From contig JAISZX010000066.1 of assembly GCA_031284365.1 (NCBI GenBank), positions 1-32,219 on the forward strand: DNA of 32,219 nucleotides. Direction: 5' to 3'. This DNA comes from Holosporaceae bacterium (GTDB taxonomy: Bacteria; Pseudomonadota; Alphaproteobacteria; UBA3830). The notes under the pieces are model-generated. The model was not told the origin of the DNA. It saw nothing but the letters and a program-made list of their open reading frames with translations, and ran no database searches. Position 1 is the stretch's first letter. The number at the start of each line of letters is the position of its first letter. Positions 1-30,770 of the stretch are shown in pieces. The position numbers and the translations under genes are program-made.

Positions 1-83
1 ATATATGCAAATTCTTTTATAGTTTATTCTTGAGATATCTGGGGGAAAGAGGAAAATCCACAGTCACGGGGCGACCGAAGGAA

Positions 84-123
84 GCAAGTGCGCACTTATG
101 CGTATCCAGTATTCGGATAACGC
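84..123 (+). other. oriT: candidate oriT / nic region for the TraA relaxase
   Basis: Positions 86-97 form a perfect 12-base palindrome, AAGTGCGCACTT, followed by ATGCGT. From memory, the RSF1010 (MobQ) nick region contains TAAGTGCGCCCT and the Ti/rhizobial oriT contains AAGGGCGCAATTATACGT, which agrees with positions 86-103 at about 15 of 18 bases. Directly downstream is an imperfect inverted repeat, GCGTATCC (100-107) and GGATAACGC (115-123), placed like the inverted repeat that follows the Ti nick site. The block sits about 90 bases upstream of a MobQ-type relaxase gene, the usual place for its target. The palindrome and inverted repeat are seen; the nick function is inference. Confidence 0.5.
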
Positions 124-197
124 AAAATTGCCTACGGCGTATTTTGAGGAAATTTTGAGATATGCGAGGAGGTATGTTACCTTGTGAAGGTTTTGAT

Positions 198-224
198 ATG
201 ATCCAAGCAAATGGCGATATATAG
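198..224 (+). CDS. possible 8-codon leader peptide overlapping the traA start
   Basis: The relaxase ATG at 211 has no good ribosome binding site directly before it. An AAGG (187-190) sits seven bases before a different ATG at 198, which opens an eight-codon frame (MIQANGDI) ending at 222-224, just past the traA start. Ribosomes loaded there could re-initiate at traA, giving translational coupling. This rests only on spacing, and a frame this short can arise by chance. Confidence 0.25.
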   Translation: MIQANGDI

Positions 225-3200
225 CCTACATGTCGGTTTTGTAAGCAGGAGCAGCGGACGGAGCGCCGTACAATCTGCGGCTTACATTTGCGGAGAAAAT
301 TTGCACGAAGAGCGTCGCGACAAAATGGCAGATTATAGCAAGAAGGCCAAAAATGTGGCGTTTGTGGCTACGTTAGCTCCGGAGCAGAGCAGATATAAAG
401 GATTGGAAGTTTGGAACGCCGTTGAAAATTTCGAAGACAATTATGCAGATAAACATTTTAAAGACGAGAATGCCAGAATAAAATTTAAAAAATCTGCTCA
501 GACAGCCCAAACAGTCGTTGTGGCTCTTCCGAACGAATTTTCTCTAGCAACCAGCAAGGAATTGTTGGAAAAATTTATCAATACAAGATTTGTAAGTCGC
601 GGGTTAATCACGACTTATGCAATTCATAATTCTGAGGGAAATTCGCATGCGCATCTTCAAATTAGTCGGCGTGCAATTAATGAAAACGGCGATTTTTTGG
701 AGCGCAAAGATCGCGAAATTTGCACAAGAGCTGCTCTATTGGAAACGCGGAAACTATGGGCCGATATGACCAATGAATTTCTGGCTCGAGATGGGTTAAA
801 GGAGCGAATAACAGAAAAGAGTTTTGCGGATTTAGGAATTAATCTAGAGGCCACAAAGCATCGCGGCTGGTATGCGGACATTATTGGAACGGATAGCAGG
901 ATAGCGCAGGAAAATCTGGAAATCTCGAAAAGAAATGAAGAGAAAATTCTTATGGATCCGAGTATTATTTTGGATTATCTAAACGAAAAAAGCGCAGTAT
1001 TTAGCCAAAAGGATATTTTAAATGAAATTGGGAAAAGAGTCTTTGAAGGTAATAGGGTATCGGCGGTATTTGAGAAGGTTTTGGAGGAGGCGAAATACGT
1101 TGGAGAAAGCATCAACGGAGAGTTTTTGTATACGGGAGAGAGGTATCAGAAGCTGGAATCAGACGTGTTATCTAAATTTGATATTCTTGCATCGCAAGAG
1201 GCGAAAACAGTTTGCAGAAATGAGATAATTTTATCTGTTTTGGAAGAATACCCATATCTTAATAAAGAACAAAAAGTTGCTGTGGAAGGATTATGTGAAA
1301 ATGGTAATGTCGGCATTCTTCTGGGAAGGGCAGGGGCAGGCAAAACGACGACCATGAAAGCAGTGTCCGATATTTATAAAAACAGCGGGGCTCGAGTGAT
1401 AGGCATGAGTCTATCGGCGGTGGCCTCGGAAAATTTGGGCAGGGATGCGGCAATCGAAAGCGCAACGATAGCATCTTGGTCTCATAGATGGCGTTCCTAT
1501 GAGTTGGCGCAGGAGAGGTTTTTATCATTCGAAGCAGTGGTAACGGAGGGAATACTAAAGCAATTCGATTGGTATAACGATCTAAAAAGATATGAAAATT
1601 CTCAACTAAAATCCGGCGACGTAATTATAGTGGACGAAGCAGGAATGGTGGGCGCCAAGGATTGGAAGACGATACTGGACGCCGCCGAAAGGTTCGGAGC
1701 AAAGATAATAGCGGTAGGGGATGATAATCAATTCAAAGCGATTTCCGCCGGAGACTGCCTGAGGCAGTTCATAAATATGGATCGAGCAGAACTCAATGAT
1801 TCTACAACAATCGCCTCCGATGTCGACGAACTCCGGCAAAATGTATTCGAGCTTTCTGAAATTCATCGTCAACGTGAAAAATGGCAAAAGGAAGCGAGCG
1901 TTGAATTATCGAAGCTTAATGTGGGAGAAGCGCTGGCGAAATATGAAAATAACGGCCGGGTGCATACATGTGAAATTCCATCTTTCCCTGTGGCTAAAAA
2001 GTACTTAGAAATTGAAAAAATAGGATCGGCGGCTGTTTTGTGTTCCACCAATAGAGAGTGCACTACAATTAATGATGAAATCCGTTTTTTGAAGAAGGAG
2101 AAAGGAGAACTGGGGAAAGATTTTATAAAGATAAATGATAAAAACTTTGCTGAGAATGATAAGGTTATCTTTCAGGAAAATAATAAATTATTTGATGTGA
2201 AGAACGGGCAGGTTGGACTCGTAAAGTCGTTTTATGATGGAATCCTGTCTATAGAAACAGAATCAGGGACAAAAAACATCAATGTTTCAGAGTATGATAA
2301 AATAAATCATGGCTATGCGATAACGTTACATAAATCTCAGGGAAAAACTTTTGATAATACAATTGTAGTAGCCGGAAAGATGATGGATGCAAAAGCGATG
2401 TATGTGAGTATGACGAGGCATCGGGAAAATGTCGATTTATACTACAAAAAATCTGATTTTGGATCGTTCAGAGAGCTTGTAAACGCTGCGTCCAGATATG
2501 CCCATAAGGACTCTTTGGAGGATTATAGAAACATCGAAAATAAGAACAAAGCCAGAGTATTTGAATATAGGGAATTATTACTGGAAACTGCGTCTGTGCA
2601 GAGGGAAATAAATATCGGCGAAGCCGCATGGGAAGATTATTGGAAATTAAAAGAAAAGAGCAATACTCTTGGGAAAGAAATTTTGCAAAATTACGAGTCT
2701 TCGAAATTGTATTTGCATCAAATGGGAATCACAAAAGAGAAGCTAGAAATAGCAGTTGGCGTGAAGCTGCGACCGTTGAGCAACGTTGAGTTAGATGCAA
2801 AAAATACAGTTGAATTGTATGCAAAAACAGCCGGTGAAACGCGAACGTTATACAAAAAAATGAAAGCGGAAACCTTTAACATCAAAAATCATGTTTTATA
2901 CAAGCAATATTCGGAAATTCGCGATAATCGCAACGAATTCGCATCGAAAATTTTATCAAATTATCCGCTGCATCGGGAGTTTGTGAGAGAAATATCGAAA
3001 CAGTTCTTTATTTCCAGGAGAACTATGGAAAATCAGGTGAATTATGAAAAAAATGAGGCTGTTTTGAAAGAAATAGGAGCCATGAAGATAGCCCGCAATC
3101 CCTTCAGCAGACTTATACCAGCTACAGGAGAATTTATAAAGTCTGAGCAAAGCAATTCCCTCTATAAACTTTCACTGGAAGCCCACAGAAAAGTCGAAGG

Positions 3201-3690
3201 ATATGGCTTATATGTTAGCAGCGCCATGTTGGACAATTATGTGGGTTCAAAAGGCATAGAGATGGATACAAAAGAACAGATATACAAATATGCGAGCATA
3301 TTGGTTCAAAAAACTGTTGATGAACAAAATCTCAAAGCAGTATCTCCGGAATTGTTGGAATCTTGTATCAAACGAGCTATATGTTTTGAAGCATTAATGC
3401 AGGCTTCAGGGAAGAAAGAATTAACCCCCAAAATGGTAGACATTTTGCATAATAGGGCGCTGATATTGAGCGATAAATTAACGGACAATAATATTCGCGT
3501 GCTCAATGATAAGTCTCTTATGGAGCGAGCTAATTCAGCGATTCATGTGGAGAATGCATCTTCACTGTCGCCGGTTCAAAAAGAGCAAATTATCGATGCT
3601 CAAGTTCGAGAACTAAATCATGAGCGTCAGAGAGAAATATCCCAAATGAAAGAACTGGAAAAAAGTAAAAATTTTGAAATAGGTATGTGA
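211..3690 (+). CDS. traA: Ti-type conjugative relaxase/helicase TraA (MobA/MobL, MobQ)
   Basis: This 1159-residue protein nicks the element at oriT and unwinds the transferred strand. The N-terminus carries the MobA/MobL relaxase fold, with the early GRSAVQSAAY segment and the metal-binding histidine motif HNSEGNSHAHL near residues 138-148. A RecD-like helicase follows: Walker A GRAGAGKTT near 371-379, DEAG near 474, AVGDDNQFKAISAGD, the motif-V-like HGYAITLHKSQGKT near 700-712, and YVSMTRHREN. The last third is charged and helical with no motif I recognise. It is the only long plus-strand gene here and ends 13 bases from the convergent rpn gene. The Ti-type relaxase with F-type transfer genes is the known hybrid make-up of Rickettsiales RAGEs. 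The frame is intact. The start has no convincing ribosome site of its own. Confidence 0.95.
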   Translation: MAIYSLHVGFVSRSSGRSAVQSAAYICGENLHEERRDKMADYSKKAKNVAFVATLAPEQSRYKGLEVWNAVENFEDNYADKHFKDENARIKFKKSAQTAQTVVVALPNEFSLATSKELLEKFINTRFVSRGLITTYAIHNSEGNSHAHLQISRRAINENGDFLERKDREICTRAALLETRKLWADMTNEFLARDGLKERITEKSFADLGINLEATKHRGWYADIIGTDSRIAQENLEISKRNEEKILMDPSIILDYLNEKSAVFSQKDILNEIGKRVFEGNRVSAVFEKVLEEAKYVGESINGEFLYTGERYQKLESDVLSKFDILASQEAKTVCRNEIILSVLEEYPYLNKEQKVAVEGLCENGNVGILLGRAGAGKTTTMKAVSDIYKNSGARVIGMSLSAVASENLGRDAAIESATIASWSHRWRSYELAQERFLSFEAVVTEGILKQFDWYNDLKRYENSQLKSGDVIIVDEAGMVGAKDWKTILDAAERFGAKIIAVGDDNQFKAISAGDCLRQFINMDRAELNDSTTIASDVDELRQNVFELSEIHRQREKWQKEASVELSKLNVGEALAKYENNGRVHTCEIPSFPVAKKYLEIEKIGSAAVLCSTNRECTTINDEIRFLKKEKGELGKDFIKINDKNFAENDKVIFQENNKLFDVKNGQVGLVKSFYDGILSIETESGTKNINVSEYDKINHGYAITLHKSQGKTFDNTIVVAGKMMDAKAMYVSMTRHRENVDLYYKKSDFGSFRELVNAASRYAHKDSLEDYRNIENKNKARVFEYRELLLETASVQREINIGEAAWEDYWKLKEKSNTLGKEILQNYESSKLYLHQMGITKEKLEIAVGVKLRPLSNVELDAKNTVELYAKTAGETRTLYKKMKAETFNIKNHVLYKQYSEIRDNRNEFASKILSNYPLHREFVREISKQFFISRRTMENQVNYEKNEAVLKEIGAMKIARNPFSRLIPATGEFIKSEQSNSLYKLSLEAHRKVEGYGLYVSSAMLDNYVGSKGIEMDTKEQIYKYASILVQKTVDEQNLKAVSPELLESCIKRAICFEALMQASGKKELTPKMVDILHNRALILSDKLTDNNIRVLNDKSLMERANSAIHVENASSLSPVQKEQIIDAQVRELNHERQREISQMKELEKSKNFEIGM

Positions 3691-4601: not shown

Positions 4602-7310
4602 TCAGCGCAGCAAAACATCTTCCACATTATGTGGTTTAAAAAGGCGGTTACCTGAGCTAATATGCGTTACCGTTTCTCCAAATGACTGGACTAATTGTTG
4701 GGCATTGTTTGTTTCGGAAAGCAGTAGCTTATTGCAGTCGGATAATTCACGAGAATTTTCAAAGAAGTGATTGATTATTATGGTATTTGAAGCGTGCTGT
4801 ATCAATTTCTTCCCCATAACGATTTTAATGGTTTCAGGAGTAATTATTTTCTCCATAAATGGCGTTAGCGCCTGCAGATGAACATCGCCTCCGCAGGATA
4901 ACCAAAGTACGGATTTATTCGATCCATAATATTCAGAAAAAGAGAATTCTTTTCTTTTCGAAATCAGCGCCTTAAAGCAGTGGAGCTCTTTTGCTATTCG
5001 GCTGCGGATTTTGATAAAAGTATCCTCATTATCTTCGATATTAACGAATGGCATCAATATAGATTTGATCTGTTTGAATGGAGCAAAACACAGTATTTGA
5101 AAGAATTCCTTTGTATTAATATCAAGACCAATGAGATATGCTATCAAATCCTCAATTTCTGCACATTCTGTTTTGATATTTTTAGCGAATCCCGAGATAT
5201 TTTGGCTATGGCGCAAATCTCCGAGGAAATCCCAAGATAAGCCGTTTTTTCTCAGAGGATTTATCAAAATATCGTCTTTTTCTGCCAAATGTTCGAAAAG
5301 AAAGTCTCCCTCTTCGAAGACTATGCCCTTTCGTTTACTGATCCTCATATCCGTCAATAATTGCCCCACGGTTTGGTTTATGGAGTCATCATTTCCCCAT
5401 ATATAGAAGGGCCTTTCGAATACAACTTCTGAGAAGTTCATGCCGGATAATTTTAGATAATCACCAAAAAATTTTGAGTATTTCTCACTAAATGTACTCA
5501 AGTCCAAAAGACGAACGGAGGTCGCCATATCTTGTTGGCATGGTTTTTGGTGGCCGTGCTCATGTAGTTTAAATTTCGTTTTAGCGACTACAGCTATTCC
5601 CGAGAATTTGATGAATGCCTCACCTGGGGTAAGATTCATGATTTCAGCATAGGGCACTGTTTGCTTTTTCTCGGTTTTTTGAGCGATATTAACTCCATCT
5701 CTCATGGTGTTTGCGCCGTAGGAAATGGCTTCCGACGCGGACACTTCTTCCTTCTCTCCGAGGAAGCTGCTCATATATTTAGCGGTATCCGGTTCGGGTA
5801 TGCCCATGACGATTTTAGTTCCACAAAGCCCTGTGATTGTTCTTGCAACTTCGTGGCCATAAATCCTATTCAATTGGGATATCATTTGGGTTCCAATAAC
5901 AAAGCAACCTCCGTATTTTCTGATTTCCGCCAATGACGTTTCTATTCTCGGCAGTCTATTCAGATTATGAAGCTCGTCGATGAAGAACCAGCAACGTGAC
6001 AAACGTGACGTTTGATCCGATATTTGCTTGGTACCAAATTTCAGTATTTTTGATCCAATCGCCTCCGTTGTCGGCGAATCTTGGCAGCAATTTTCCTGTC
6101 TCATCAGTGATTCAGTGGCGATCGATAACCAAGCAGTGATCAAAGGAGTCAATGATGCTCTTTCCACAGGTCTACATGATAGAAACAAAAGGCCATTTTT
6201 ATCCGAAGCAATCCATTTTCGAATGCTGAAATTTCCGTCAGAGGACTCCTTCAGAATATCAAAAACCGAAATGGCGTTAATGAGCATGGCGCGAACGGAA
6301 ATGGCCATTTTATCGGCTCTTTCGTCCATCAAACCATGGCCATATGTTCCCTCCAGATAATTTTGCATCTCCTTGAGGGATACTTTGAGCAATAGATTCA
6401 GAAACTCGTCAGTAGATTTTCCTTCCTTGATAGCTTTTTTAGCGGTTTCTTGGAAGACAATTTTAGCTGCTTCTTCCCAGAATTTATCTTGGCTATTTTC
6501 GCCGTTTCCGATAAGACAGGCGGCGACGTTTTTCAGTAAAATTTCGTCCTGACATTCGTTCAGAAAACTCCAGGAAATGGAGCGACCATCCAGTGGATTT
6601 AATATGATATCTCGACTTTCATCATAATATTTGTTCAAGTACGTGCCTACGGTATCAACAATGACGATCTTCTCGTTTTTGGTCGCAATCTGATCCAGAA
6701 GCTCAATCATGACGTTTGTTTTGCCGGAGCCTGTTGTGCCGGTAAGAATCGTGTGTCGGCATTCGGTTCCCTTGGGATAGGGGATATCCGCCAATATAAT
6801 GTCGCTTTTGTGTCTGATATATTTCCTGATTTTTGTTCCTTTCACATACTCATGTCCGGAAATCAGTTCTTTGCCGTCGCTGAGAGATTTGCCAAAATAT
6901 TTGTTGAAAAGCACCATGAGAAGCATGGCGGCAATGCTGATGCATGTGCTGAGCTTGAGAGCAAAGCTCAATGAGTCTTCAAAGCTAGCTTTGAAAAACA
7001 AACAAGGTTCGCCCGTGGCAATGACATAATCCGATACCTCTTTCCATTTACCGCTTCCAAATTTGAAATATGAGTGACTGAACAGGGTGGATGGAAGCGT
7101 CGTCATGTTGCTTCTATAGGTTGCTTTCAGGCAAACGAAATAGTTCCATATGCTGCTCGAGTTCCATTTGTTTATGAGATAGAAAAGGAAGCTCCCAAGA
7201 AAGCTCAGTCGCCCCACAAGCCAGATGACGTTCCAGTTTTGCATCATCATGCGCACACGATGCGCCAGCACCTGTCCGCCAATGGTGCTATGGTCTGAAT
7301 ATCTACTCAC
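4602..7310 (-). CDS. traD: F-type coupling protein TraD with a degenerate second ATPase-like domain
   Basis: TraD is the inner-membrane ATPase that hands the relaxase-DNA complex to the secretion channel. The N-terminus has the STIGGQVLAHRVRMM segment typical of F-type TraD and two membrane spans (about residues 28-47 and 125-145). Walker A is GTTGSGKT near 190-197 and Walker B is WFFIDELHN near 439-447, with the family segment GTQMISQLNRIYG after it. At 902 residues it is well over F TraD (about 720). Residues from about 630 repeat the order of the first domain without a P-loop: DILINPLRKNGLSWDFL mirrors DIILNPLDGRSISWSFL, and VLWLSC...LTPF mirrors LLFLSC...LTPL. The start is GTG, set by an AGGAG seven bases upstream. 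It is last of the transfer genes in transcription order. Confidence 0.93.
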   Translation of the reverse strand: MSRYSDHSTIGGQVLAHRVRMMMQNWNVIWLVGRLSFLGSFLFYLINKWNSSSIWNYFVCLKATYRSNMTTLPSTLFSHSYFKFGSGKWKEVSDYVIATGEPCLFFKASFEDSLSFALKLSTCISIAAMLLMVLFNKYFGKSLSDGKELISGHEYVKGTKIRKYIRHKSDIILADIPYPKGTECRHTILTGTTGSGKTNVMIELLDQIATKNEKIVIVDTVGTYLNKYYDESRDIILNPLDGRSISWSFLNECQDEILLKNVAACLIGNGENSQDKFWEEAAKIVFQETAKKAIKEGKSTDEFLNLLLKVSLKEMQNYLEGTYGHGLMDERADKMAISVRAMLINAISVFDILKESSDGNFSIRKWIASDKNGLLFLSCRPVERASLTPLITAWLSIATESLMRQENCCQDSPTTEAIGSKILKFGTKQISDQTSRLSRCWFFIDELHNLNRLPRIETSLAEIRKYGGCFVIGTQMISQLNRIYGHEVARTITGLCGTKIVMGIPEPDTAKYMSSFLGEKEEVSASEAISYGANTMRDGVNIAQKTEKKQTVPYAEIMNLTPGEAFIKFSGIAVVAKTKFKLHEHGHQKPCQQDMATSVRLLDLSTFSEKYSKFFGDYLKLSGMNFSEVVFERPFYIWGNDDSINQTVGQLLTDMRISKRKGIVFEEGDFLFEHLAEKDDILINPLRKNGLSWDFLGDLRHSQNISGFAKNIKTECAEIEDLIAYLIGLDINTKEFFQILCFAPFKQIKSILMPFVNIEDNEDTFIKIRSRIAKELHCFKALISKRKEFSFSEYYGSNKSVLWLSCGGDVHLQALTPFMEKIITPETIKIVMGKKLIQHASNTIIINHFFENSRELSDCNKLLLSETNNAQQLVQSFGETVTHISSGNRLFKPHNVEDVLLR

Positions 7311-11237: not shown

Positions 11238-14057
11238 TTAGTCATCTCCCCAAGAAAATGTATTTATCGTCTTATCCACAACAGCATGCGCCGCTCCTTT
11301 CCCAGCTCTTTCCTTTTCTTTTTGTCTAATTTTGCGTGCTTGATTTTTTATTTCCATTTTTTCTTGGGAGATATTGGATTTAGTGTTTTGCAACTTGTCG
11401 CTGACGACGACTTTGATTGCGCGTTGATCGCCTTGTAGCTTTTCTTTTTTAGCCTTTCTATCGTCATCCATTTTATCGATGTTGGTTCGCGTCTGTTGTT
11501 CTTGTTGTTTATATTCTGGCCTGAAGTCACTTTCCGCCTGCTTTCGATTATAATCGCCCCAGCCTGGCTGCTTCATTTGCGGCATCGTCGGCCTCATTCT
11601 TACGGTTTCTCTGCTTTTCGCCTCCATGAGCCAGCCTTGCGCTTGCTCTTTATCAGATGCACTGCTGGAATCAATCATTTGGGAGGCTTCAGACTTGGTG
11701 TATCCTCTTTCTGTGGCTATTTCCAACGCATGATCCCGTAGATTACTCCTCTCACTGATGGTCAGGCTGCTCGCTCTGTTGTAGCTTTCCTGGTAACTTT
11801 TCGCCATGTGTTCGTTGTAGGCCTTATCCTGACTGTACTGACTCATTTTCGAAAGCGTATCCGTATGATCTCTCGCCAACTGCGCTACCTCGTCGTTTCT
11901 GCTGGATGCCGCTATGTCCTGCATATAGGAATCAAATCTCTTCTGGGTTTCAGCAATATCGTGAGATGTGGACGCCTGGCTGGAATCGCCGTAATTCGTG
12001 GTGTTGCTGGACTCTACTCCTCCATTCATGCCGATTCCGACTTGTCCAGCGACTGAACCGCTTACAGATACCTTGCTCTTCTTGCTGCCTGCGCCTTTAG
12101 AAAGGTCGATATGACCACCTGCATTTGCTCCAAAAGCTAAGTTTCCTCCGGCTTTAGTCCCATCAGCGTAGGCATGCCCGTTGTAATACTGATCCAATAT
12201 CTTTGCATCATTGTGTATCTGCTGAGCTTTATCCGCCCCCATGTTGTATTTGCTAGAGATATCCTGGGCCGACATGCTGCTGAAACTATGGGCCAACCGA
12301 GATGTTTCACTGTGGGAAGCGCTCTTGCTCTGAGAGTATTTTACCGTGGCGTCATAGGCTCTCTGCATCGAATCGCCGTAGCCCTTGCGAAATTCCTCCG
12401 TATCTGTACTGGTGGCTGAAAAGTCTCTGACTCCGCTGCTTACGGCATGACTTATGGTGGAGAATCCACTGGCGTCGTTGATAATTTGTACTCCTCCGGT
12501 ATCAAGTCTATGTCCTCCGGCCGACAGGGAACTGGAGAAACTCCTCTGTAATTGGGAAAGATTGTCCAACTGCTGGTTTCTCATGCTGACATTGCCGAAC
12601 GAGAAATTACCGGAAGATACTTCCGCGGCAGCAGAGCTAGCAGCTTGCATCGAGGTGCCTGTCATCTGACCTGCAAGATGTACAAACGTCCCCACTCCCT
12701 TCACTATGGCTATGCAGATAAATGGTATACTCATGGATAAATATCCAGCCAGGAGTTTTATTTCTGCATTAGCCTCCGACACTCCTATGTAATTGGCTAT
12801 GGTTAATCCTCCGGCAGTACCAAGTTCGGATAAAGTGGACGCCCTTGCTGCTATGTTCATAATATAGTTAAGAATGGCGTACATTGGAGGCCAGGCCTGT
12901 AGCCAAATTAAAATCGCAACCCAATTCATGAAAAATTTATAGCCGCTTGGAACCATACAAAGCGGTATTATGAAGATAAAACAGGCATAGGCCAGCGCTT
13001 CTATAACCGCTTTCATTATTGGCAGCAACTTTGTAGCCAGTCGTCCGACCGTATCAAATGTGCTACTCTGTTGTTGCAGAGCCCTTGTCTCCGCATAGGT
13101 AATGGCGTTACCGGCCAATTTGCAGTTTTCGGACGCTGCGTCTCCTATGGCATTGATCATCAAGGCCTGCTTCAGGCTGTTTTCTGCATTTTCTGCTATA
13201 TCTCCAAGATATGAGGTGATATTTTGCAGATTTGCTTTGATCTCGGCCTTTAGGGCAGTCTCCAAACTCGAGTTCATCATCAATTTAGGAGAGTTACTTC
13301 CGGAATTGGCGATGAATCTTCCGGTGAAAAACTTCCTTCCCAGAAGAGAAAACGATCTGTCCAGTTCCGCAGCCCAGGCCTGATTGAATTTCTCCGCGGC
13401 TTCTTCACATGTGACGTAGACAGCCATGCCTTTACCCGTTATTGGTATCCAGAATATTCCTCTGTTTTTGGATGGATTGCTGGTTATCAGTCCCCATAAA
13501 TCGTTTGTATTTCTTAGGTCATCGAAACTGTACTTTTGGTTCAACATGATGTCGTATTTCACGCATTGACCGACGAAATTGCGCATGTTTTCCTTGAAAT
13601 TTTGATTTGTGATCCTAAAGGTTTTGGCTTTTTCCAGAATATCAGAGCCAAACATCATGCCGTTTTTCTGATATTTCATATCATCCGGAGTGGAGAAGCT
13701 TTGCTCTACGATTTCCGTAAGCACTTTCCCCAGCTTGCTGGTTTGGGACGCAAAAAGAGCTAATCCATAGGGCACATGATCGATTTTATAGGCATATCTT
13801 GTGATGGCGTCCTTTATCCATACGGTGCTGGTGGGAAGAAACAGCATATTGGTCATGAGCAGCACCGGCATACCCCAGGTTTTCAGAATTTGCATGGGAT
13901 TGCCATACAAAATCATGTAATAAACCATAAACGCACCAACAAGACCTCCGATCCTCAGCATGGCCGTCAGCGTCCCGCTGCCTCCGTTCAAACACATGGC
14001 AACGGCTTTTATTACCTCATATACAATCTCGCCTCCTCCTATGGTGTATAGGTCCAC
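11238..14057 (-). CDS. traG: TraG, mating-pair stabilisation and pilus assembly protein
   Basis: TraG is a large inner-membrane protein of F-type systems; its N-terminal half works in pilus assembly and its periplasmic C-terminal half in mating-pair stabilisation and exclusion. At 939 residues it matches F TraG in length. The first 210 residues follow F TraG closely (YTIGGGE, then DHVPYGLAL, then YQKNGMMFGSDIL and YDIMLNQKYSFDDL). Several membrane spans lie near residues 30-80 and 355-470. The rest is the serine-, alanine- and glutamine-rich region typical of the family. It starts with GTG just after the DUF4143 ATPase gene, with a loose AGGA ribosome site. A second diverged copy of its 5' end, with ATG, lies 1.5 kb upstream beside vapC, so the present start may be a rebuilt one. 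Confidence 0.94.
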   Translation of the reverse strand: MDLYTIGGGEIVYEVIKAVAMCLNGGSGTLTAMLRIGGLVGAFMVYYMILYGNPMQILKTWGMPVLLMTNMLFLPTSTVWIKDAITRYAYKIDHVPYGLALFASQTSKLGKVLTEIVEQSFSTPDDMKYQKNGMMFGSDILEKAKTFRITNQNFKENMRNFVGQCVKYDIMLNQKYSFDDLRNTNDLWGLITSNPSKNRGIFWIPITGKGMAVYVTCEEAAEKFNQAWAAELDRSFSLLGRKFFTGRFIANSGSNSPKLMMNSSLETALKAEIKANLQNITSYLGDIAENAENSLKQALMINAIGDAASENCKLAGNAITYAETRALQQQSSTFDTVGRLATKLLPIMKAVIEALAYACFIFIIPLCMVPSGYKFFMNWVAILIWLQAWPPMYAILNYIMNIAARASTLSELGTAGGLTIANYIGVSEANAEIKLLAGYLSMSIPFICIAIVKGVGTFVHLAGQMTGTSMQAASSAAAEVSSGNFSFGNVSMRNQQLDNLSQLQRSFSSSLSAGGHRLDTGGVQIINDASGFSTISHAVSSGVRDFSATSTDTEEFRKGYGDSMQRAYDATVKYSQSKSASHSETSRLAHSFSSMSAQDISSKYNMGADKAQQIHNDAKILDQYYNGHAYADGTKAGGNLAFGANAGGHIDLSKGAGSKKSKVSVSGSVAGQVGIGMNGGVESSNTTNYGDSSQASTSHDIAETQKRFDSYMQDIAASSRNDEVAQLARDHTDTLSKMSQYSQDKAYNEHMAKSYQESYNRASSLTISERSNLRDHALEIATERGYTKSEASQMIDSSSASDKEQAQGWLMEAKSRETVRMRPTMPQMKQPGWGDYNRKQAESDFRPEYKQQEQQTRTNIDKMDDDRKAKKEKLQGDQRAIKVVVSDKLQNTKSNISQEKMEIKNQARKIRQKEKERAGKGAAHAVVDKTINTFSWGDD

Positions 14058-14063
14058 GTTATT

Positions 14064-15263
14064 TTATTCCTCTAATTCTTCTTTCCCAGGCTTTGTCATC
14101 ATTGCCTCTGATGGTAGACCATTTCCTAAAAACTGCAGCCAATTTTCCTTGTTTATGATGGTTAAATCTGAAACCCCGTAGGTTTCTTCGAAAATCTTCG
14201 GCAATTTGGCTCTTTTATTAGGGCTGTACTTAAATTCGTACGTTTTTAATCTTCCGTCCTCTTCCTCGATAAAATCAATCTCCCCACCATCGTAATTTCT
14301 CCAAAAATACCTACGACATCTTCTTCCTTCCCGCTGAGCCTTTTTCATGAGCTCAACAACGCAAAAATTTTCCCATATGCCTCCGACATCGTTTCGAAGA
14401 TCCATGCTTTGGTAAATACCAAGCAGTGCGTTTCTTATTCCAACATCATAGAAAAAGATTTTTCTTGTTCGATTCCCAGCAATTTCATTTCTGAGGTTTC
14501 TAGAAAAAGCCGGCAGCGCGAATATCACATAACATTTCTCCAGAAGATCAACATACTTCTTTACGGTATTTGCATTAATCTCGAGTCTCTTTGATAATTC
14601 ATTGAAAGAAACTTCCGAACCTATCTGCAAAGCCAAACACTGAAGTAATTTCAGGATTTGATCAGAGCGCCTTACATTCTCAAACACAAGTATATCTTTG
14701 TATAAATAACCGTTAACTAGATTTTCCAATTCGTCTCTGGCTTCATCTTCCGTCATTCCATGAATACATGGATACATTCCCAATCTCAGAAAATTATCTA
14801 AACTAGCATCTGCTATAAACGCTCCCTGGACGTCCTTTAATTCGTTTACAGAGAAAGGGTACAAGATAAACGAGCGACTTCTTCCGACAAGCGGCTCTCC
14901 AGTTTTATTAGCTAAATCAAAGCTGGACGAACCGGTTGCTATAACTTGAATCTCAGGAAAAACATCGTGAATTATCTTCAATGTCCGACCTATGTTGATG
15001 ACATTCTGTGCTTCGTCGATGGCAATTATGTCGAAACCGTCAACATACTGCTTCAAAAGCTGTTCGTTGGTTGTTTCAAGAGCCTGTTTTACACTCAATA
15101 GGTCGCAGTTCAAGTATACACATCTTTTTCCTAATGACTCATTTTCAGCAATAATTTGCCGAAGAAGTGTAGTCTTACCGACTCTTCGGGTACCAAAAAT
15201 CAAAATAACTCTATCTTGAAAGAGAGAGCCATTAATTTTACTAAATATATCACGTTTAATCAT
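14064..15263 (-). CDS. AAA_14/DUF4143 ATPase, inserted between traG and the toxin-antitoxin genes
   Basis: This 399-residue protein has the standard layout of the AAA_14 plus DUF4143 family: Walker A GTRRVGKTT (residues 24-32), Walker B IIAIDEAQN (D83, E84), the sensor-like VIATGSSSFDLANK, a winged-helix-like middle (FNELSKRLEINANTVKKYVDLLE) and a C-terminal nuclease-like fold with GGEIDFIE and TYEFKYS. These ATPases are frequent on mobile elements and in intracellular bacteria; their job is not established. It breaks the traH-traG order, is bounded by two copies of the traG 5' end, and has its own possible promoter. It looks like a later insertion, not a transfer gene. Confidence 0.9.
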   Translation of the reverse strand: MIKRDIFSKINGSLFQDRVILIFGTRRVGKTTLLRQIIAENESLGKRCVYLNCDLLSVKQALETTNEQLLKQYVDGFDIIAIDEAQNVINIGRTLKIIHDVFPEIQVIATGSSSFDLANKTGEPLVGRSRSFILYPFSVNELKDVQGAFIADASLDNFLRLGMYPCIHGMTEDEARDELENLVNGYLYKDILVFENVRRSDQILKLLQCLALQIGSEVSFNELSKRLEINANTVKKYVDLLEKCYVIFALPAFSRNLRNEIAGNRTRKIFFYDVGIRNALLGIYQSMDLRNDVGGIWENFCVVELMKKAQREGRRCRRYFWRNYDGGEIDFIEEEDGRLKTYEFKYSPNKRAKLPKIFEETYGVSDLTIINKENWLQFLGNGLPSEAMMTKPGKEELEE

Positions 15264-15293
15264 GTTATTCGGCCTAATATCCTCAGCAAACTT

Positions 15294-15321
15294 ATTGTAT
15301 TCAGTATATTGATAAAAGCAA
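15294..15321 (-). promoter_or_regulatory. possible promoter of the DUF4143 ATPase gene
   Basis: On the minus strand TTGCTT (15316-15321) and TACAAT (15294-15299) are 16 bases apart, with the -10 box about 30 bases before the ATPase start. The -35 is weak. It would let the inserted gene, and traG after it, be transcribed independently of the upstream operon. Confidence 0.35.
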
Positions 15322-15347
15322 CTTCTATATTATCCATCGTGCATACA

Positions 15348-15572
15348 CTACCTAACAGCCTTAGGAATCGATTCAGGCCGGGCGTTGCCCTCCCATTTTT
15401 TAACGAATCCTATTTCTAAAAAAGTAAGGAGTACTTTCGCGGCAAAGGCTCCTGTAAAACCTCCGATCCTCAGCATCGCCGTCAGCGTCCCGCTGCCTCC
15501 GTTCAAACACAATGCAACTGCCTTCAGGACCTCATAGACAATCTCCCCTCCTCCTATGGTGTATAGGTCCAT
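15348..15572 (-). pseudogene. duplicate 5' fragment of traG
   Basis: The first 43 or so residues, beginning MDLYTIGGGEIVYEVLKAVA and ending in GAF, are nearly the same as the TraG start. The two DNA stretches (15455-15572 and 13940-14057) agree strongly, with most differences at silent positions. After that the frame runs into an unrelated tail (AAKVLLTFLEIGFVKKWEGN, then a stop). It starts with ATG three bases after the vapC stop. It is probably the original traG start, cut off when the ATPase segment arrived, or a piece of a second related element joined by recombination. A 75-residue protein with one hydrophobic segment could still be made. Confidence 0.8.
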
Positions 15573-15575
15573 CAA

Positions 15576-15956
15576 TTACTCCAAACTTACCTCTAGACCT
15601 TCTTTGTGAGCGACATCAATTAGCTGTTTATCAAACGTAGCGATCGGGCATTTGTATTTTTTAGCCAACAGTAGATACGATGCGTCGTAGGCCGTTAACC
15701 CCGTTTCCACAGCGTATAGAAACAGCTTCATCGGATCGGATCGATGTCTTTCAATACCGAGGGCATCAACAGCGGCGAAACAATTCTTGACGGCACCAGT
15801 AGATAAAGCCTGGCGTTTGGCCGTTTTCCACATAACATTCGCAAACTCGTAATCAAATAAATCTGTTGTGATAAATCTTTTGTCATCATCGAAAAAGTTC
15901 ATTGATAACTCTTGTCTCACAAACTTTACGACAAACGACGTGTCCAGTACTACCAT
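15576..15956 (-). CDS. vapC: PIN-domain toxin (VapC family)
   Basis: This 126-residue protein has the PIN ribonuclease layout: the start VVLDTSFVVKF with acidic D5, then DYEFANVMWKTA with E37, then LTAYDASYLLLAKKYKCPIATFDKQL with D91 and D109. These four acidic residues form the metal site by which VapC toxins cut RNA, often tRNA. It overlaps its antitoxin gene by seven bases, the usual tight arrangement. The pair lies between traH and the traG fragment. It would act as an addiction module that keeps the element in its host, which is inference from the family. Confidence 0.9.
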   Translation of the reverse strand: MVVLDTSFVVKFVRQELSMNFFDDDKRFITTDLFDYEFANVMWKTAKRQALSTGAVKNCFAAVDALGIERHRSDPMKLFLYAVETGLTAYDASYLLLAKKYKCPIATFDKQLIDVAHKEGLEVSLE

Positions 15957-16177
15957 TTTCTACCCTCATTTTTGAAGGCCGTCATCTCCTCAAACCCAAG
16001 ATTCAACTTCGGACAGTTAGCTAAAGATGCCTTGATTTTTGCAGCTCTGTTACGGCGTACTTTTTTGATGATATACGCTTCCCGGCCTTCGAATGTCACC
16101 GTCAACTCTTCTTCGTCCTTGAGACGTGGAAGAAGCTTGAACATTTCTTTGCGCAATTTAGTTAAAGATATCTGCAT
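15950..16177 (-). CDS. antitoxin of the PIN toxin, Phd/YefM-like
   Basis: This 75-residue protein sits directly before the PIN toxin and overlaps it by seven bases. The N-terminal half, with LTKLRKEMFKLLPRLKDEEE and then LTVTFEGREAYIIKK, has the shape of Phd/YefM DNA-binding antitoxins (helix, then strand-turn-strand carrying a G-R/K-x-A-like step). The C-terminal part, rich in Lys, Leu and acidic residues, would wrap the toxin. A CGGAG lies five bases before its ATG. The gene has its own strong promoter with a palindrome between the boxes, as expected for an autoregulated antitoxin. Confidence 0.8.
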   Translation of the reverse strand: MQISLTKLRKEMFKLLPRLKDEEELTVTFEGREAYIIKKVRRNRAAKIKASLANCPKLNLGFEEMTAFKNEGRKW

Positions 16178-16208
16178 ATTTACTCCGTTATTACTTCAAT
16201 ACATCCTT

Positions 16209-16237
16209 ATGATACTATATGCACGTACATATGTCAA
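16209..16237 (-). promoter_or_regulatory. promoter and operator of the toxin-antitoxin pair
   Basis: On the minus strand TTGACA (16232-16237, perfect consensus) and TATCAT (16209-16214) are exactly 17 bases apart, starting a few bases past the traH stop. The spacer holds a near-perfect 16-base palindrome (16217-16232, ATATG and CATAT around ACGT, one mismatched pair), a good site for the antitoxin to bind and block RNA polymerase. This promoter may also feed the genes downstream, traG included. Confidence 0.75.
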
Positions 16238-16242
16238 GCTTT

Positions 16243-17598
16243 TCATCGCACCTCCCGTCCCTTTTGCAGAGTTTCGAAGGTATTTTCGAGTTTTTTCTCG
16301 TAGATTTTGGTGCTTTCGATCATGATAAGCATTTGGTTCATCTGTTCGTAGGCCATCTTGCGCTTTCTGTTGATGGTCGCCTTGGCCTCCTGCAACTGAG
16401 AGAGAAATTTGTTGACTTCTTCGTCCGACACCTGGGCATTTTTGAGATTTGCCGTTTCCTCCAGCATTACGTCCAAAATCTCGGAAATATACTGATGTAT
16501 GAGATCAACGCAAATAATGTCTGTGAAGTCTCTTAAATCAAACTCCGATCTTTTGTAGGTGGTTAGCACGTTCACCATCTTGTATATGGGAAGACGCACT
16601 TTTCCGATGAACTCTATCTCGTTCTTGGTCAGCGGCTGATCGTTGATGGCTTTTTGGGTGATGTCCGAGAGCGTTTTTCTAACTCTATTGGCGAATCCTC
16701 CGGAAGCAATATTAAAATCCTTCGCTTGAACCCTGAGACATTTTCCAGTTTCATCACAGCCGTATCCGGACACATTCCCGCCTTCGAGCAAAGCTTTTAT
16801 CAGATCGTCGGTTACTTTACTTGGGTATCTGACTACTCTTCGATTTCCAGATTCCTGGAAGGAAACAATCGTGCCGGAGACGGTCATGCACAGATACCCC
16901 AGCTCCGGGTCCGAGGCCAGGTAACCATTGCGTTTAATAACTTCCCAGGCCACGTTAAATTCCTCTGCAAGAATGTCTTTGTATTCTGCTTCGCTGCTTT
17001 TTCCAGCAAGCACTCTGGAGCGATTACTTCCGGCTCCACATTCGTGTTTGGCCGCCACCCAGCCCTTAAACATGCCGCTCTTGCTGCCCATGGATGTGCA
17101 TATGTGCCGACTTGCGACATCAGACTTTGGCCATGCTCCTCCCACCAGAGTGGCCGCCATCTCGCAGGAGTTCATGCTGGCCTGATTGATTTTAGAAGCC
17201 ATATCCTGCAGCTCCGCCATCACCGATTGCACCGCAGGAGCAAATGTCTTCATGGCCAGCATAAAGCCGTAGCTGACAGCGCTGGAGCCTATGCTTTTCA
17301 TTGCGTCCACCAACTGCGCGCTGTTTACAAAGGAAAATCCTCCGGTAAACATATCTATGCCTCCGCAGCCGGCGTTGACATTAGGTAGCTGCAGCGTCGC
17401 CACTTGAGAATTCCTTGCCCTATTCCTGACGCTTAGCCCGCCTCCGTTGTAATATCCCGCAGATTGATCATGATGGACTCCAGGAGACGTGGAATTTGTC
17501 ACTGCTCCAAATTTTTTGAAAAACTCTTCCAGATCTGCGCCCACTCCGCAGTAGACATTCTGGAATAACAAAGAAAAAATCAGTAGTTCTTTTCTCAT
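16243..17598 (-). CDS. traH: TraH, conjugative pilus assembly protein
   Basis: TraH is a periplasmic protein of F-type systems needed to build the pilus, acting with TraF, TraW, TraU and TrbC. At 451 residues it is close to F TraH. It begins with a signal peptide (MRKELLIFSLLFQNVYCG). Family segments follow: GYYNGGGLSVRNR, LPNVNAGCGGIDMFTGGFSF (about 72-91), and LVGGAWPKSDVASRHIC. The C-terminal 80 residues look like a coiled coil, as in F TraH. It overlaps the traF stop by four bases (ATGA) and has a GGAG ribosome site. On F it is followed by traG; here a toxin-antitoxin pair and an ATPase gene intervene. Confidence 0.95.
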   Translation of the reverse strand: MRKELLIFSLLFQNVYCGVGADLEEFFKKFGAVTNSTSPGVHHDQSAGYYNGGGLSVRNRARNSQVATLQLPNVNAGCGGIDMFTGGFSFVNSAQLVDAMKSIGSSAVSYGFMLAMKTFAPAVQSVMAELQDMASKINQASMNSCEMAATLVGGAWPKSDVASRHICTSMGSKSGMFKGWVAAKHECGAGSNRSRVLAGKSSEAEYKDILAEEFNVAWEVIKRNGYLASDPELGYLCMTVSGTIVSFQESGNRRVVRYPSKVTDDLIKALLEGGNVSGYGCDETGKCLRVQAKDFNIASGGFANRVRKTLSDITQKAINDQPLTKNEIEFIGKVRLPIYKMVNVLTTYKRSEFDLRDFTDIICVDLIHQYISEILDVMLEETANLKNAQVSDEEVNKFLSQLQEAKATINRKRKMAYEQMNQMLIMIESTKIYEKKLENTFETLQKGREVR

Positions 17599-18431
17599 TG
17601 CAATTCTCCGTCACCCATGATTGAGACAATCCTTTCCTCCATCTCCTGAATGGATATCATTCCAATTGCCACTGGTATTACGTGCCCTGATTTGGGATTT
17701 ACGGCGAACAGCGATGGATATGTGTTCACTCCCCAGGTTTCCGCTAGACCGTTGTCTCGAACGCTCCTCTCGAACAACTCATGCGTTTCACCAAATTCAC
17801 TGATGGCCAGCACGTCCCAGTCGTATTTTTCGCTAAATCCTTTAACCACAGGAGCAAATGCATCGCAGTAGGGACAATTATTCTTGAAAAAGAAGAACAA
17901 TCCATATTTTTGGGACAATTCATGGATTTTTTCTTCCGCCAGTCTCTTTTGTTCCGCCAAATAGATATGTCGAGCATTCTGGGACATGGGAGATTCCTGC
18001 GTATAATCTATGTCCGGAGTCTTGTATACGTTTTGCATCCAGACTTTTGCGAATTCTCCGGATTTTTGTATTATCTCGTATTGCATTTTTTGATAATTGA
18101 ACACGTTTTGAGAAGTGGGATACATCACGGCCGCCGCTTTGGCCTCCTCCAATTGTGCTTGATATAGTTTTAGCTCCTCTGTGGCAGGATATTGAGCAGA
18201 AATAGAAGAATCTTTAGACTCCTGGTTGGTATTAAAATCATCGGGTTGAGCCTCAGGCTCATACCAGTGCCAGCCTCTGGCGTGATCATCATAGAAGGAT
18301 TTTCCGTCCTCGGCATTGGATAAACCAGTTAAAAATAGAAAAATTATCAAACAGTTAACCATTAATTTCACTTTTCTAAATGCCGCCCGAGCGGCATAAT
18401 TCCATTCATCGCCTGTACTGCAAGTACTCAT
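17595..18431 (-). CDS. traF: TraF, thioredoxin-fold pilus assembly protein
   Basis: TraF is a periplasmic thioredoxin-like protein of the F-type assembly set. The C-terminal half has the fold, with FFFFKNNCPYCDAFAPVV: an intact CPYC active site at residues 186-189, where F TraF itself has lost its cysteines. NTYPSLFAVNP holds the expected cis-proline. It therefore probably handles disulfides in the cysteine-rich partners TraN, TraU and TraH. The 278 residues include an odd start: 23 residues precede what looks like the real signal peptide (MVNCLIIFLFLTGLSNA), and most are encoded by a dispersed palindromic repeat. The first ATG has a strong GGAGG six bases upstream and overlaps the traN stop; the inner ATG has no clear ribosome site. 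Confidence 0.93.
   Translation of the reverse strand: MSTCSTGDEWNYAARAAFRKVKLMVNCLIIFLFLTGLSNAEDGKSFYDDHARGWHWYEPEAQPDDFNTNQESKDSSISAQYPATEELKLYQAQLEEAKAAAVMYPTSQNVFNYQKMQYEIIQKSGEFAKVWMQNVYKTPDIDYTQESPMSQNARHIYLAEQKRLAEEKIHELSQKYGLFFFFKNNCPYCDAFAPVVKGFSEKYDWDVLAISEFGETHELFERSVRDNGLAETWGVNTYPSLFAVNPKSGHVIPVAIGMISIQEMEERIVSIMGDGELQ
18372..18420 (-). repeat. palindromic repeat, copy A, inside the 5' end of traF
   Basis: The core hairpin is ATGCCGC and GCGGCAT (18380-18397) with a four-base loop, TCGG in the sense strand. The flank reads CAGGCGATGAATGGAATT upstream in the sense strand and TTTAGAAAA after it, matching copy C closely and copy B more loosely. It is translated as GDEWNYAARAAFRK between the traF start codon and the signal peptide. 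Confidence 0.75.
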
Positions 18432-20341
18432 TTGCCGCCTCCAACTTTCAGAGAACCGGTCAGATGTCTCATGTTTTCTTTAAGGTAAGCCGCTTCAGAT
18501 GCTCCAGAGCGCCGCCTGGGCGGCGTAACGTCATTAACCGCCAGTGGCGCAGCCACCATCTGCTCCCTAATGCGATCTAGTTCTCCTTCCCTTGCAAAGT
18601 GTTCTCCGCCCTGAGGCTTAAACTTGCCCATAATATCGTTGGTAATTTCTGTTAAATCTAATCTCGAAAAGTCGATCCGGCTCAGCTGTTCTGGAGTAAA
18701 TCCTCCGCAGCTAGGGTGTTCTGAGTCTCCAAAGTTCATGCCCAATTGCGGCTTTCCCTGCTCCTGCAAAAGTTTTGCGAACTTCGTTCCAAAGCAACAG
18801 AATACTGATTTTTTTCTCAGGCAGAATTTCGTAAATCCCACATTTATCTCTTCTGCACAATGGGTTCCGACATATATGCATTTCCCTTCTTCACGGAGTT
18901 TTGCCAGAGTTTTAGCGTCCTCGTCGCATCTTGTGAGGCCAAGACTCACACCCAGCCCCTTTCCGTTGCCACAACAATCTTTGATGCCAACTCCTATTCT
19001 GATTTTATTGCAGGAGCGATCTTGTCCCTTGAATATATTGATATTCGCCGTACCGTCCATCTCTTTTCTCGCCTCTTCCAGAATCGAAAGGTATCCCAAA
19101 GCCTGAATCATATCTTTGTCGGATTCGTAACTGGAATCGATGCAGTCTCCTCCCAAACAAAACGGATTTTTCTTAGAAAATTTATGTTTAGCCACCACAA
19201 CTCTATCTCTACATTTAAACTTCCATCTCCAGCGCAAACATTTGCCATCTTTTTCTTCCAGACATTCCGGATCAGGCTGCCGAGAGTACCCTCTGGCTTT
19301 CAGATCTGTGCAGGTATCTTTGCAGGACGATCTACAGCCAAAGGTCATGGTTCTACCCCAGGAGCCATTCACCTTTTTTCCTTTCCAGAACTTCTCCGAA
19401 GGCGGATCGTCCTCAAATGATTCGTAGCGACACAATCCCTGGTCGCACAATTCTTCATAGTGTTTGTAGGCGTCGTCTGGAATCCAATAATGCTCTCCGG
19501 TGTCATTCACAACCCGATGATGGAGATAGGCGTTTCCTATTTCTCCCCAGGGGATGTATTCATCGCTGGCTCCTCCCAGAAGCTTGGTTATCAGCGTCGC
19601 AGCACTTACTACGTGATTTTGTAATGCCGGCACCAAATAACAACTTGGGTGTATCCAGGGATGACCGTTTTGCTGTATGGTTTTCCTCAAAATCACATTT
19701 ACTCCGTTTACTCGATAGGTTTCGTCCACATAAGCTCCTCCCCAGGAAACTGTGCTTATATGGGTAATGTCGTTAAATACTCCATCTTCCCGAAATATCT
19801 CTTCTGGTTCGTCAACTATTTCCACTTTGATGGTCAAATATCCGTGATTCCCACAATTCTGACCCGCCGTTATATATGGAGGAGTCTGAAGATACACGTA
19901 CCTCTTCTTGATCATTCTTGCTTTTACAAAATACTCTTCGTCCGGACATTCTTCGCAGGTTTCAATGGTGTAGTCATCGCTCCCTTCTTCCACAGATTCC
20001 GTTTCTTCAAAAGCCCGCTCCGGATGTTGGTGTATTTCTTCAGATCGAGTCATAAACGGTTCGGTATCGTCCAATATGTAAGGCTTACGAGTTTTGTGAA
20101 TGTTCCGCAAATCCCTGCCGTGTTCTGTTTGTTCCAAATGTTCGAATGATTTAGATAATTCGGTCCTGTTGATAAAAACTCCATCTCGATATTGAGGTAC
20201 ATGAGTCTTGTGGGCTCCGGATTTTATTTCACCCTCTATGTCGTTTTTGCTGGATTCGGCCACCCGTTTCCCATGCTCAAACGAATCCCTCACGGCTTCT
20301 GCTTTGAAGAACGATAAAAACATCAGTAATGTCATTATCAT
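18428..20341 (-). CDS. traN: TraN, cysteine-rich outer-membrane mating-pair stabilisation protein
   Basis: TraN sits in the outer membrane and holds donor and recipient together during F-type conjugation. This 637-residue protein has a signal peptide ending near AEA (residue 16), a charged spacer, then a cysteine-rich body. The C-terminal family block is clear: NPFCLGGDCIDSSYESDKDM, IKDCCGNGKGLGVSLGLTRC, FCLRKKSVFCCFGTKFAKLLQEQG, and EHPSCGGF...LSRIDFSRLDL, each matching the layout of F TraN. The variable first half (to about residue 260) would contain the receptor-contact region. The start overlaps the trbC stop by four bases with a GGAGGGG ribosome site. A palindromic repeat is read through near the C-terminus (APLAVNDVTPPRRRSGA), outside the conserved block. 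Confidence 0.95.
   Translation of the reverse strand: MIMTLLMFLSFFKAEAVRDSFEHGKRVAESSKNDIEGEIKSGAHKTHVPQYRDGVFINRTELSKSFEHLEQTEHGRDLRNIHKTRKPYILDDTEPFMTRSEEIHQHPERAFEETESVEEGSDDYTIETCEECPDEEYFVKARMIKKRYVYLQTPPYITAGQNCGNHGYLTIKVEIVDEPEEIFREDGVFNDITHISTVSWGGAYVDETYRVNGVNVILRKTIQQNGHPWIHPSCYLVPALQNHVVSAATLITKLLGGASDEYIPWGEIGNAYLHHRVVNDTGEHYWIPDDAYKHYEELCDQGLCRYESFEDDPPSEKFWKGKKVNGSWGRTMTFGCRSSCKDTCTDLKARGYSRQPDPECLEEKDGKCLRWRWKFKCRDRVVVAKHKFSKKNPFCLGGDCIDSSYESDKDMIQALGYLSILEEARKEMDGTANINIFKGQDRSCNKIRIGVGIKDCCGNGKGLGVSLGLTRCDEDAKTLAKLREEGKCIYVGTHCAEEINVGFTKFCLRKKSVFCCFGTKFAKLLQEQGKPQLGMNFGDSEHPSCGGFTPEQLSRIDFSRLDLTEITNDIMGKFKPQGGEHFAREGELDRIREQMVAAPLAVNDVTPPRRRSGASEAAYLKENMRHLTGSLKVGGGK
18500..18546 (-). 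repeat. palindromic repeat, copy B, inside the 3' end of traN
   Basis: The arms are CGCCGCC (18510-18516) and GGCGGCG (18519-18525). The sense-strand flanks, ACTGGCGGTTAATGACGTTA before and TCTGGAG after, align with copies A and C. It encodes LAVNDVTPPRRRSGA in the TraN tail, in the same frame as copy C but a different one from copy A. Confidence 0.65.
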
Positions 20342-20892
20342 TGCCCCTCCAGAAGCTTGGAATGTGCAAATTCCAATGTCACATTGCCGGACAATCTGTT
20401 GATTTCTACGCCGTTTTTTATCAACACAAATGTGGGAACTTTTTTGATGTTGTATTGCCTGAACAAATCTGGATGAATCTGAAGCTGTAGCCCTTTCGGA
20501 TTAATCTCCAGTATCTTGTTCTTAGTTTTCAAAAAAGAATCTTCGTGAATACCTCTAAGCACAAGTGTTGCGTTATACTTTTGGGATTGATCGCCTAGCT
20601 CCATCAATGACGCTTTTGGCATCGAAAATGACACAAACACGATGATGCCGTTTTCTAAAGTTGCTTCTTTGTTCGGAATATTCTGAATTCCAGAGCCGCA
20701 ATCTTTGCAGCCATCTTCAGTGGCAGGAAGCTCGCCAGTTATGAACTCTAACTCTTTCGCCATGTTATAAACTTTCTCAAGATTGAGTCTTTGCTGTTTC
20801 GCGAATTTTACGTCCTCAGAAGTTCGATCCTGAGCTGCGGAAAAATCAAATGCCACAATAATCAGAAGGACTCCTCCTATAAAAGGCAGCAT
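20338..20892 (-). CDS. trbC: TrbC, F-type pilin assembly protein
   Basis: TrbC is a periplasmic thioredoxin-like protein that works with TraW in F-pilus assembly. The family core is clear: IIVFVSFSMPKASLMELG, then TLVLRGI, then FRQYNIKKVPTFVLI and a final FAHSKL. A CKDCG cysteine pair lies in the spacer after the signal peptide. The frame is open for 62 more codons upstream, inside traU, but the start is placed at 20892. That ATG has TGGAG nine bases before it and opens a clear signal peptide (MLPFIGGVLLIIVAFDFSAA). This gives 184 residues and a 16-base overlap with the end of traU. Confidence 0.92.
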   Translation of the reverse strand: MLPFIGGVLLIIVAFDFSAAQDRTSEDVKFAKQQRLNLEKVYNMAKELEFITGELPATEDGCKDCGSGIQNIPNKEATLENGIIVFVSFSMPKASLMELGDQSQKYNATLVLRGIHEDSFLKTKNKILEINPKGLQLQIHPDLFRQYNIKKVPTFVLIKNGVEINRLSGNVTLEFAHSKLLEGQ

Positions 20893-21851
20893 TGTCTTTT
20901 TCTCCAGATCAAATATCCAAAATCTTCTCCCGTGTATGGTTTTTCTTTTCCTCCTTCCCAATGAACACTGGTTCGCCCAAGTGGCTTGCACCCGCCCTTG
21001 CCTGTCGTTGAAGACGGATACAGCATCTGCTGCTTGTATTGGCTCTTCATCATCAGGGGCATTAAATATGGTCCACACATTCCGCTTTTGCCGATGGTTC
21101 CCTGAGCCAATAATTCCCTATGCATTTTCGCCAACATGCGAGACGTTAGAAGAAGAGATGCTTGCACTCCTCCAATATGATATGGAACATGTCCCGTATA
21201 CGGATAAATGCTCCCCTGACATCCGGCGCACCAAAACATCTCGTCCAGAGGAAAACCGGCGGTCGCAGCAACGGAATCCGCGGCACAAGCTGCTTGCGCT
21301 ATTGGATTGCCAAATATTACTGCTTCAGGATTTAGCACAAATGCCGTCTCATCATCGTTCCACAGAGGATCAAATTCTGTGATGTAAGCAACATCCATCT
21401 GCCCCTTTTCCATGCAAACGAAATTGGTGAGAAGTTCCAGCCAATATAGGACTGGGTAAATGTAGTAATGAACCTGATAAAAACTGCTTTTCGTATTGTT
21501 GGTAGTGGCGCCGGTGGAAACGTTTCCATGTCCTCGAATACTGTCCGCTCCTATCTGGAGACCACCCATGTTCACAAGACAAAATTTCACTCTTGTAACG
21601 TCGATTAGTCTTGCCGGTTCCCAAAACGATACCGGAATGCCGATGCGAGGAATCGGTTTTTCGCAGGTGCAGAGAATTTCTCTAGGGTTACTGGTATCTT
21701 CCCCACTTGGAGATACTTTTAGTCCGCAGATTGTTATGGGAAACAAACAACTCCAACATATGTCGGTGGCGGGATTAACAAACCTGCCGGTGCATTTGCC
21801 ATATCCCTCAAACATCAATAACAAAGAAAAAATGCAGATAAAAAACCTCAT
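20877..21851 (-). CDS. traU: TraU, periplasmic pilus assembly and DNA transfer protein
   Basis: TraU is one of the most conserved F-type proteins, periplasmic and needed for DNA transfer and, more weakly, for piliation. This 324-residue copy follows the family throughout: signal peptide (MRFFICIFSLLLMFEGYGKC), then PATDICWSCLFPITICG, PIPRIGIPVSFWEPARLIDV, FYQVHYYIYPVLYWLELL, EFDPLWNDDETAFVLNPEAV, MFWCAGCQGSIYPYTGHV and MCGPYLMPLMMKSQYK. Conserved cysteines are present. Length is like F TraU (330). It starts 13 bases after traW, and its end overlaps trbC. Confidence 0.97.
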   Translation of the reverse strand: MRFFICIFSLLLMFEGYGKCTGRFVNPATDICWSCLFPITICGLKVSPSGEDTSNPREILCTCEKPIPRIGIPVSFWEPARLIDVTRVKFCLVNMGGLQIGADSIRGHGNVSTGATTNNTKSSFYQVHYYIYPVLYWLELLTNFVCMEKGQMDVAYITEFDPLWNDDETAFVLNPEAVIFGNPIAQAACAADSVAATAGFPLDEMFWCAGCQGSIYPYTGHVPYHIGGVQASLLLTSRMLAKMHRELLAQGTIGKSGMCGPYLMPLMMKSQYKQQMLYPSSTTGKGGCKPLGRTSVHWEGGKEKPYTGEDFGYLIWRKRQCCLL

Positions 21852-21864
21852 GCGATATTTTCCA

Positions 21865-22500: not shown

Positions 22501-22527
22501 TAGCTTTTCTCAATTATTACCTTCGTG

Positions 22528-25510: not shown

Positions 25511-25556
25511 ACTATTCCCTCTAAATCACTCCCAATCGCGTCACAAGTCACGAAAC

Positions 25557-25928: not shown

Positions 25929-25941
25929 CCTAAACACCTCC

Positions 25942-30769: not shown

Positions 30770-30770
30770 T

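Follow-up and report, generated by a model that had tools for sequence, protein, structure and literature searches.

A probable MOBQ-type origin of transfer upstream of traA in a conjugative element of a rumen Holosporaceae bacterium

The DNA analysed here (the window) is a whole contig of 32,219 bp, belonging to a 1.44-Mb genome in 133 contigs. Positions 61-138 of this window, read on the minus strand, very probably constitute the origin of transfer (oriT) of a conjugative element from a rumen Holosporaceae bacterium, in which a MOBQ (Ti-type) relaxase is combined with an F-type T4SS. The computed support covers sequence and structure, their conservation, the order of the genes, and catalytic residues that are intact; the nicked base, the protein contacts, the direction of transfer and the activity are predicted. 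The block is almost certainly a transfer start of the ordinary type known from RSF1010 and rhizobial plasmids, and it is new for this group of rumen Holosporaceae. In the open-licence papers searched, only relaxosome genes, and no oriT sequence, were found for Rickettsia, RAGE or Holosporales elements; thus, a transfer origin predicted at base level for RAGE-like elements in a reduced, host-associated lineage is useful.

A preliminary description of this region had drawn attention to a 12-base palindrome, AAGTGCGCACTT, which indeed lies at 86-97 and is the sole copy in the whole window when up to two mismatches are allowed. Its 17-base extension, AAGTGCGCACTTATGCG, has one exact occurrence in the 1.44-Mb genome. 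The similarity to the Ti-type nick region, estimated at about 15 of 18 bases, was reproduced when AAGTGCGCACTTATGCGT in the window was compared with AAGGGCGCAATTATACGT in a rhizobial plasmid (L024), and the adjoining inverted repeat is real, its arms being located at 99-107 and 115-124. The proposal that this is a nick region holds as regards the MOBQ type of the oriT, although its orientation has to be changed. On the minus strand the elements follow one another as a small repeat GCC-GTA-GGC (138..130), the hairpin (124..99), the nick-region core TAAGTGCGCACTT (98..86) and the box CGTGACTG (68..61). Since the hairpin precedes the core, on its 5' side, only when the minus strand is read, this is taken as the functional strand and the one predicted to be nicked, the palindrome being incidental rather than defining. 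The nick is predicted between G91 and C90, with TAAGTGCG before it and CACTT after it.

The palindrome is not rare by itself, about one chance match at two or three mismatches being expected per window, and therefore conservation must carry the case for an oriT, and does so. Five relatives carry the block as well, 70-115 bp before traA, and upstream regions could be compared at six Holosporaceae loci (the window, L011 and L013-L016). Relaxase identity to the window is 69-73% in the four loci with a full-length N terminus, and 59% over a partial match in L011. Core and hairpin are kept upstream of traA in all six loci while the surrounding sequence drifts: CATAAGTGCGCACTT is exact in five of them and differs by one base in the sixth. 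Related elements thus keep both the GTGCGC core and the inverted repeat beside it ahead of traA, the conservation that the preliminary description had named as support. A scan of 50 genomes of the order, with one mismatch allowed, gave seven occurrences of the core. Six lie ahead of traA, on the strand opposite to it; the seventh is a decayed copy in G012, beside a traA remnant, with TGCAC for TGCGC, and no other orphan copy of the oriT was found in these genomes. Conservation, position, strand and hairpin, repeated across dozens of loci, have already refuted a chance resemblance of the 12-base palindrome, an explanation with next to no probability left in spite of the expected background of similar motifs.

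The predicted relaxase-recognition hairpin, TGCG(T)TATCC-GAATACT-GGATACGCA (99..124, minus), is placed directly 5' of the core and forms nine pairs with one bulged T; its folding in the window gives z = -3.2. In the set of MOBQ loci, hairpins favour the 5' side, where the mean z is -2.8, as compared with -0.3 in the sequence 3' of the core (p = 4.5e-6). The arms change in step among the Holosporaceae relatives, in such a way that the sequence varies and the pairing is kept. At alignment columns 4/24, the G-C pair of the window is replaced by A-T in L013 and L011. At columns 5/6 with 23/22, the window or L013 has T-A or T-G where L016 and L011 have C-G; the stem of L014 and L015 is longer and of a different sequence. 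Taking into account that the sequences are few and that the window hairpin contains a bulge, this covariation is considered as supporting evidence only.

The elements flanking hairpin and core are also maintained. The small inverted repeat GCC-GTA-GGC (130..138, minus) appears as GCC-G(T/C)A-GGC in five of the six Holosporaceae loci, and a comparable small GC repeat is found at the same place in an IncQ1 plasmid and in a Pseudomonas MOBQ plasmid. The box CGTGACTG (61..68, minus), on the 3' side of the predicted nick, has the form CGTGA(C/T/A)TG in all six loci, at 17-20 nt from the core. Each of the two could possibly be an accessory-protein site.

The generality of this arrangement was evaluated in 68 distinct upstream regions of MOBQ relaxase loci, taken from Alphaproteobacteria and from plasmids and oriented to the relaxase, with TAA[GTC][TC]GCGC as the strict core pattern. 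The controls were 416 windows of the same length, located within or behind relaxase genes. The strict core was detected on the strand opposite to the relaxase in 49 of the 68 regions and on the same strand in eight, as compared with 2 and 0 of the 416 control windows. A perfect stem of at least five pairs just before the core is present in 28 of the 49 loci vs 2.7% of shuffles. Many of the 19 regions without the strict core have a variant of one or two bases after a hairpin, such as TAAGTGGGCACTT (Paracoccus) and TATCAGCGCGCC (one relaxase group). An earlier set of 22 loci had given best 13-mer scores of 10-13, against no more than 10 in 171 control windows; the 68-region test is the fairer one, since the 22 loci were partly chosen by score. 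At the nucleotide level, when 111 bp of the window were compared by blastn with 72,556 plasmids, a single match was obtained, weak (E = 0.9), which adjoins the MobA gene of a Pseudomonas MOBQ plasmid. The design amounts to a rule (a hairpin, then TAAGYGCGC, on the opposite strand and in most cases no farther than about 320 bp from the start of the relaxase) that would point to the oriT of many alphaproteobacterial MOBQ elements, and that covers two Rickettsiales plasmids too. In one genus (G287, G433, G437 and G441), genomes of about 2 Mb carry up to seven MOBQ relaxase loci each, of at least three oriT types, and conjugative elements are strongly amplified.

Alignment with MOBQ oriTs, suggested in the preliminary description, brought agreement from IncQ1, MOBQ4, rhizobial and Rickettsiales plasmids. 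The IncQ1 (RSF1010/R1162) type was represented by an IncQ1 plasmid and the Ti type by rhizobial plasmids. The IncQ1 oriT shares with the window a hairpin directly before TAAGTGCGC, on the strand opposite to the relaxase genes and pointing to mobC; its AGTTTCTCGAAGAGAAACCGGTAAGTGCGCCCTC keeps the same order as in the window, opposite the annotated mobB and running toward mobC. The cores are identical at 11 of 13 positions, but IncQ1 has CCCT where the window has CACT, and it is a mobilisable plasmid without its own transfer channel. The MOBQ2 or Ti-type rhizobial loci (L022 and L024) share the divergent order traC-traD, oriT, traA, together with a hairpin and TATAATTGCGCCCTT, although their hairpin is GC-rich and their channel is MPF_T, instead of the F type of the window. 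In the MOBQ4 system (pIGWZ12/ColE9-J type), a 178-bp oriT fragment between mobC and mobA was mobilised, and transfer fell drastically when this fragment was split (PMC6856555). The mobA-mobC intergenic region of plasmid L026 has exactly that length, 178 bp, and its core is identical to that of the window at all 13 positions, which suggests that L026 is a MOBQ4 plasmid. Its mobC is divergent from mobA as well; however, it is a small mobilisable plasmid with a weak hairpin.

RAGEs possess an F-type T4SS (PMC10732058), and they share a TraA_Ti-type relaxase with the Megaera and Bandiella plasmids and with the window. The preliminary description had assigned the element to a Rickettsiales type, and this can be maintained only in part. 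F-type tra/trb genes and a TraA_Ti-type relaxase, as in RAGEs, are present; however, by its TraA relatives the element belongs to Holosporaceae rather than to a Rickettsiales host, the nearest relatives being rumen and ruminant metagenome genomes, several of them named Holosporaceae. Two Rickettsiales plasmids nevertheless share the design, with hairpin and core in L021 (Megaera) and a weaker core in L062 (Bandiella), while a second Megaera plasmid, L061, has a diverged core.

The gene downstream of the block, traA (211..3690, plus), encodes a MOBQ relaxase of 1159 aa with a RecD-like helicase (Pfam MobA_MobL 4e-36, and AAA_30), and it matches TIGR02768 TraA_Ti with 2e-139, below the curated cut-off. 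Its catalytic residues Y25, E109, H146 and H148 are intact, and a tyrosine has been reported in MOBQ4 relaxases at the position matching Y25 (PMC6856555). Beyond traA, the contig is occupied mostly by minus-strand F-type conjugation genes, with some cargo: a type IV coupling protein of F type (4602..7310, minus; TrwB_AAD_bind 7e-128) and the F-type mating-pair genes (11238..28542, minus), in which Pfam matches identify TraG, TraH, TraF, TraN, TrbC, TraU, TraW, a signal peptidase, TraC, TraB/TrbI, TraK and TraE. The ends of the contig show no overlap that would indicate circularity, no integrase was found among the window proteins scanned, and the contig does not include the left end of the element.

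It could be argued that the block is a relic oriT, left by an element that no longer transfers, taking into account the fragmentary assembly and the decayed copies in two relatives, G012 and G026. This is unlikely: in the window the core is intact, the relaxase and the F-type genes are open and the catalytic residues are kept, whereas G012, in which traA has decayed, also has a G-to-A change in the core. In this decayed element (L066, 1500-1515; G012:C15), the changed core adjoins the short traA remnant. A traA start that lacks the core, found in the relative G026, would count against the oriT, but it belongs to a fragment of only 29 residues, located at a contig end and lying against a traD-like gene; the start lies about 40 bp from this gene (L074, 2622-3025; G026:C4), the oriT region is missing and a resolvase is found on the same contig.

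For the oriT, the following mechanism is proposed. TraA would recognise the hairpin (124..99) and the adjacent TAAGTGCGC, and would cut the minus strand between G91 and C90, Tyr25 becoming joined to the 5' end at C90. The helicase of TraA would then unwind the nicked strand, and the coupling protein (4602-7310) would hand it to the F-type channel, whose participation is deduced from gene content. The DNA to the left of the nick (the traC/traD-like side in relatives) would thus enter first, and traA last. IncQ relaxases cut between TAAGTGCG and the C that follows. The MOBQ TraA of pIP501 cuts at GpC (PMC4981023), and the nick at G91/C90 is predicted from this analogy and from the IncQ1 alignment.

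On the other side of the block, L014-L016 carry one or two small divergent genes; one accessory ORF of L016 passes the Pfam TraD cut-off (25.1 vs 22.3 bits) and another ORF falls just below it. The traC/traD side is absent from the window because the contig begins at position 1, and a TraD-like query had no match in the genome of the window, a weak negative. The layout of divergent accessory genes, oriT and relaxase is also found in rhizobial, Sphingobium, Bandiella, Paracoccus, MOBQ4 and IncQ1 plasmids. Between the traC-like and traD-like genes, L016 encodes a protein with an HNH-like motif (HHIIPINSGG; 1912-2550, minus).

The position of the block in a divergent intergenic region would also suit a regulatory operator for the traC and traA promoters, to which the relaxase or an accessory protein would bind, with the nick elsewhere, and the MOBQ TraA of pIP501 represses its own promoter at oriT (PMC4981023). 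That the block is mainly such an operator is, however, very improbable, given that the core is common to MOBQ plasmids with unrelated flanks, that the hairpin lies on one side of it, and that a promoter-like match reaches only chance level. Operator and oriT roles are, in any case, mutually compatible.

Returning to the oriT, it might tentatively be regarded as a distinct Holosporales subtype, although this is rather less probable than its not being so, in which the relaxosome, of MOBQ type, supplies an F-type channel, and the small divergent TraC/TraD-like proteins read conserved accessory sites peculiar to the subtype, CGTGACTG and GCC-GTA-GGC. If this were true, the subtype would set which elements a bacterium of an intracellular lineage can export.

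Among the transfer genes of the window (3704-4525, 8124-10434 and 14064-15956, minus), the cargo includes a PDDEXK-family transposase, a class-V aminotransferase, a YhcG-type nuclease, a DUF4143 ATPase and a PIN-domain protein. The far end of the conjugation cluster (30194-32162, minus) holds a CdiI immunity gene together with a CDI-type toxin domain (EC869-like nuclease), the frame of the latter being open to the contig end.
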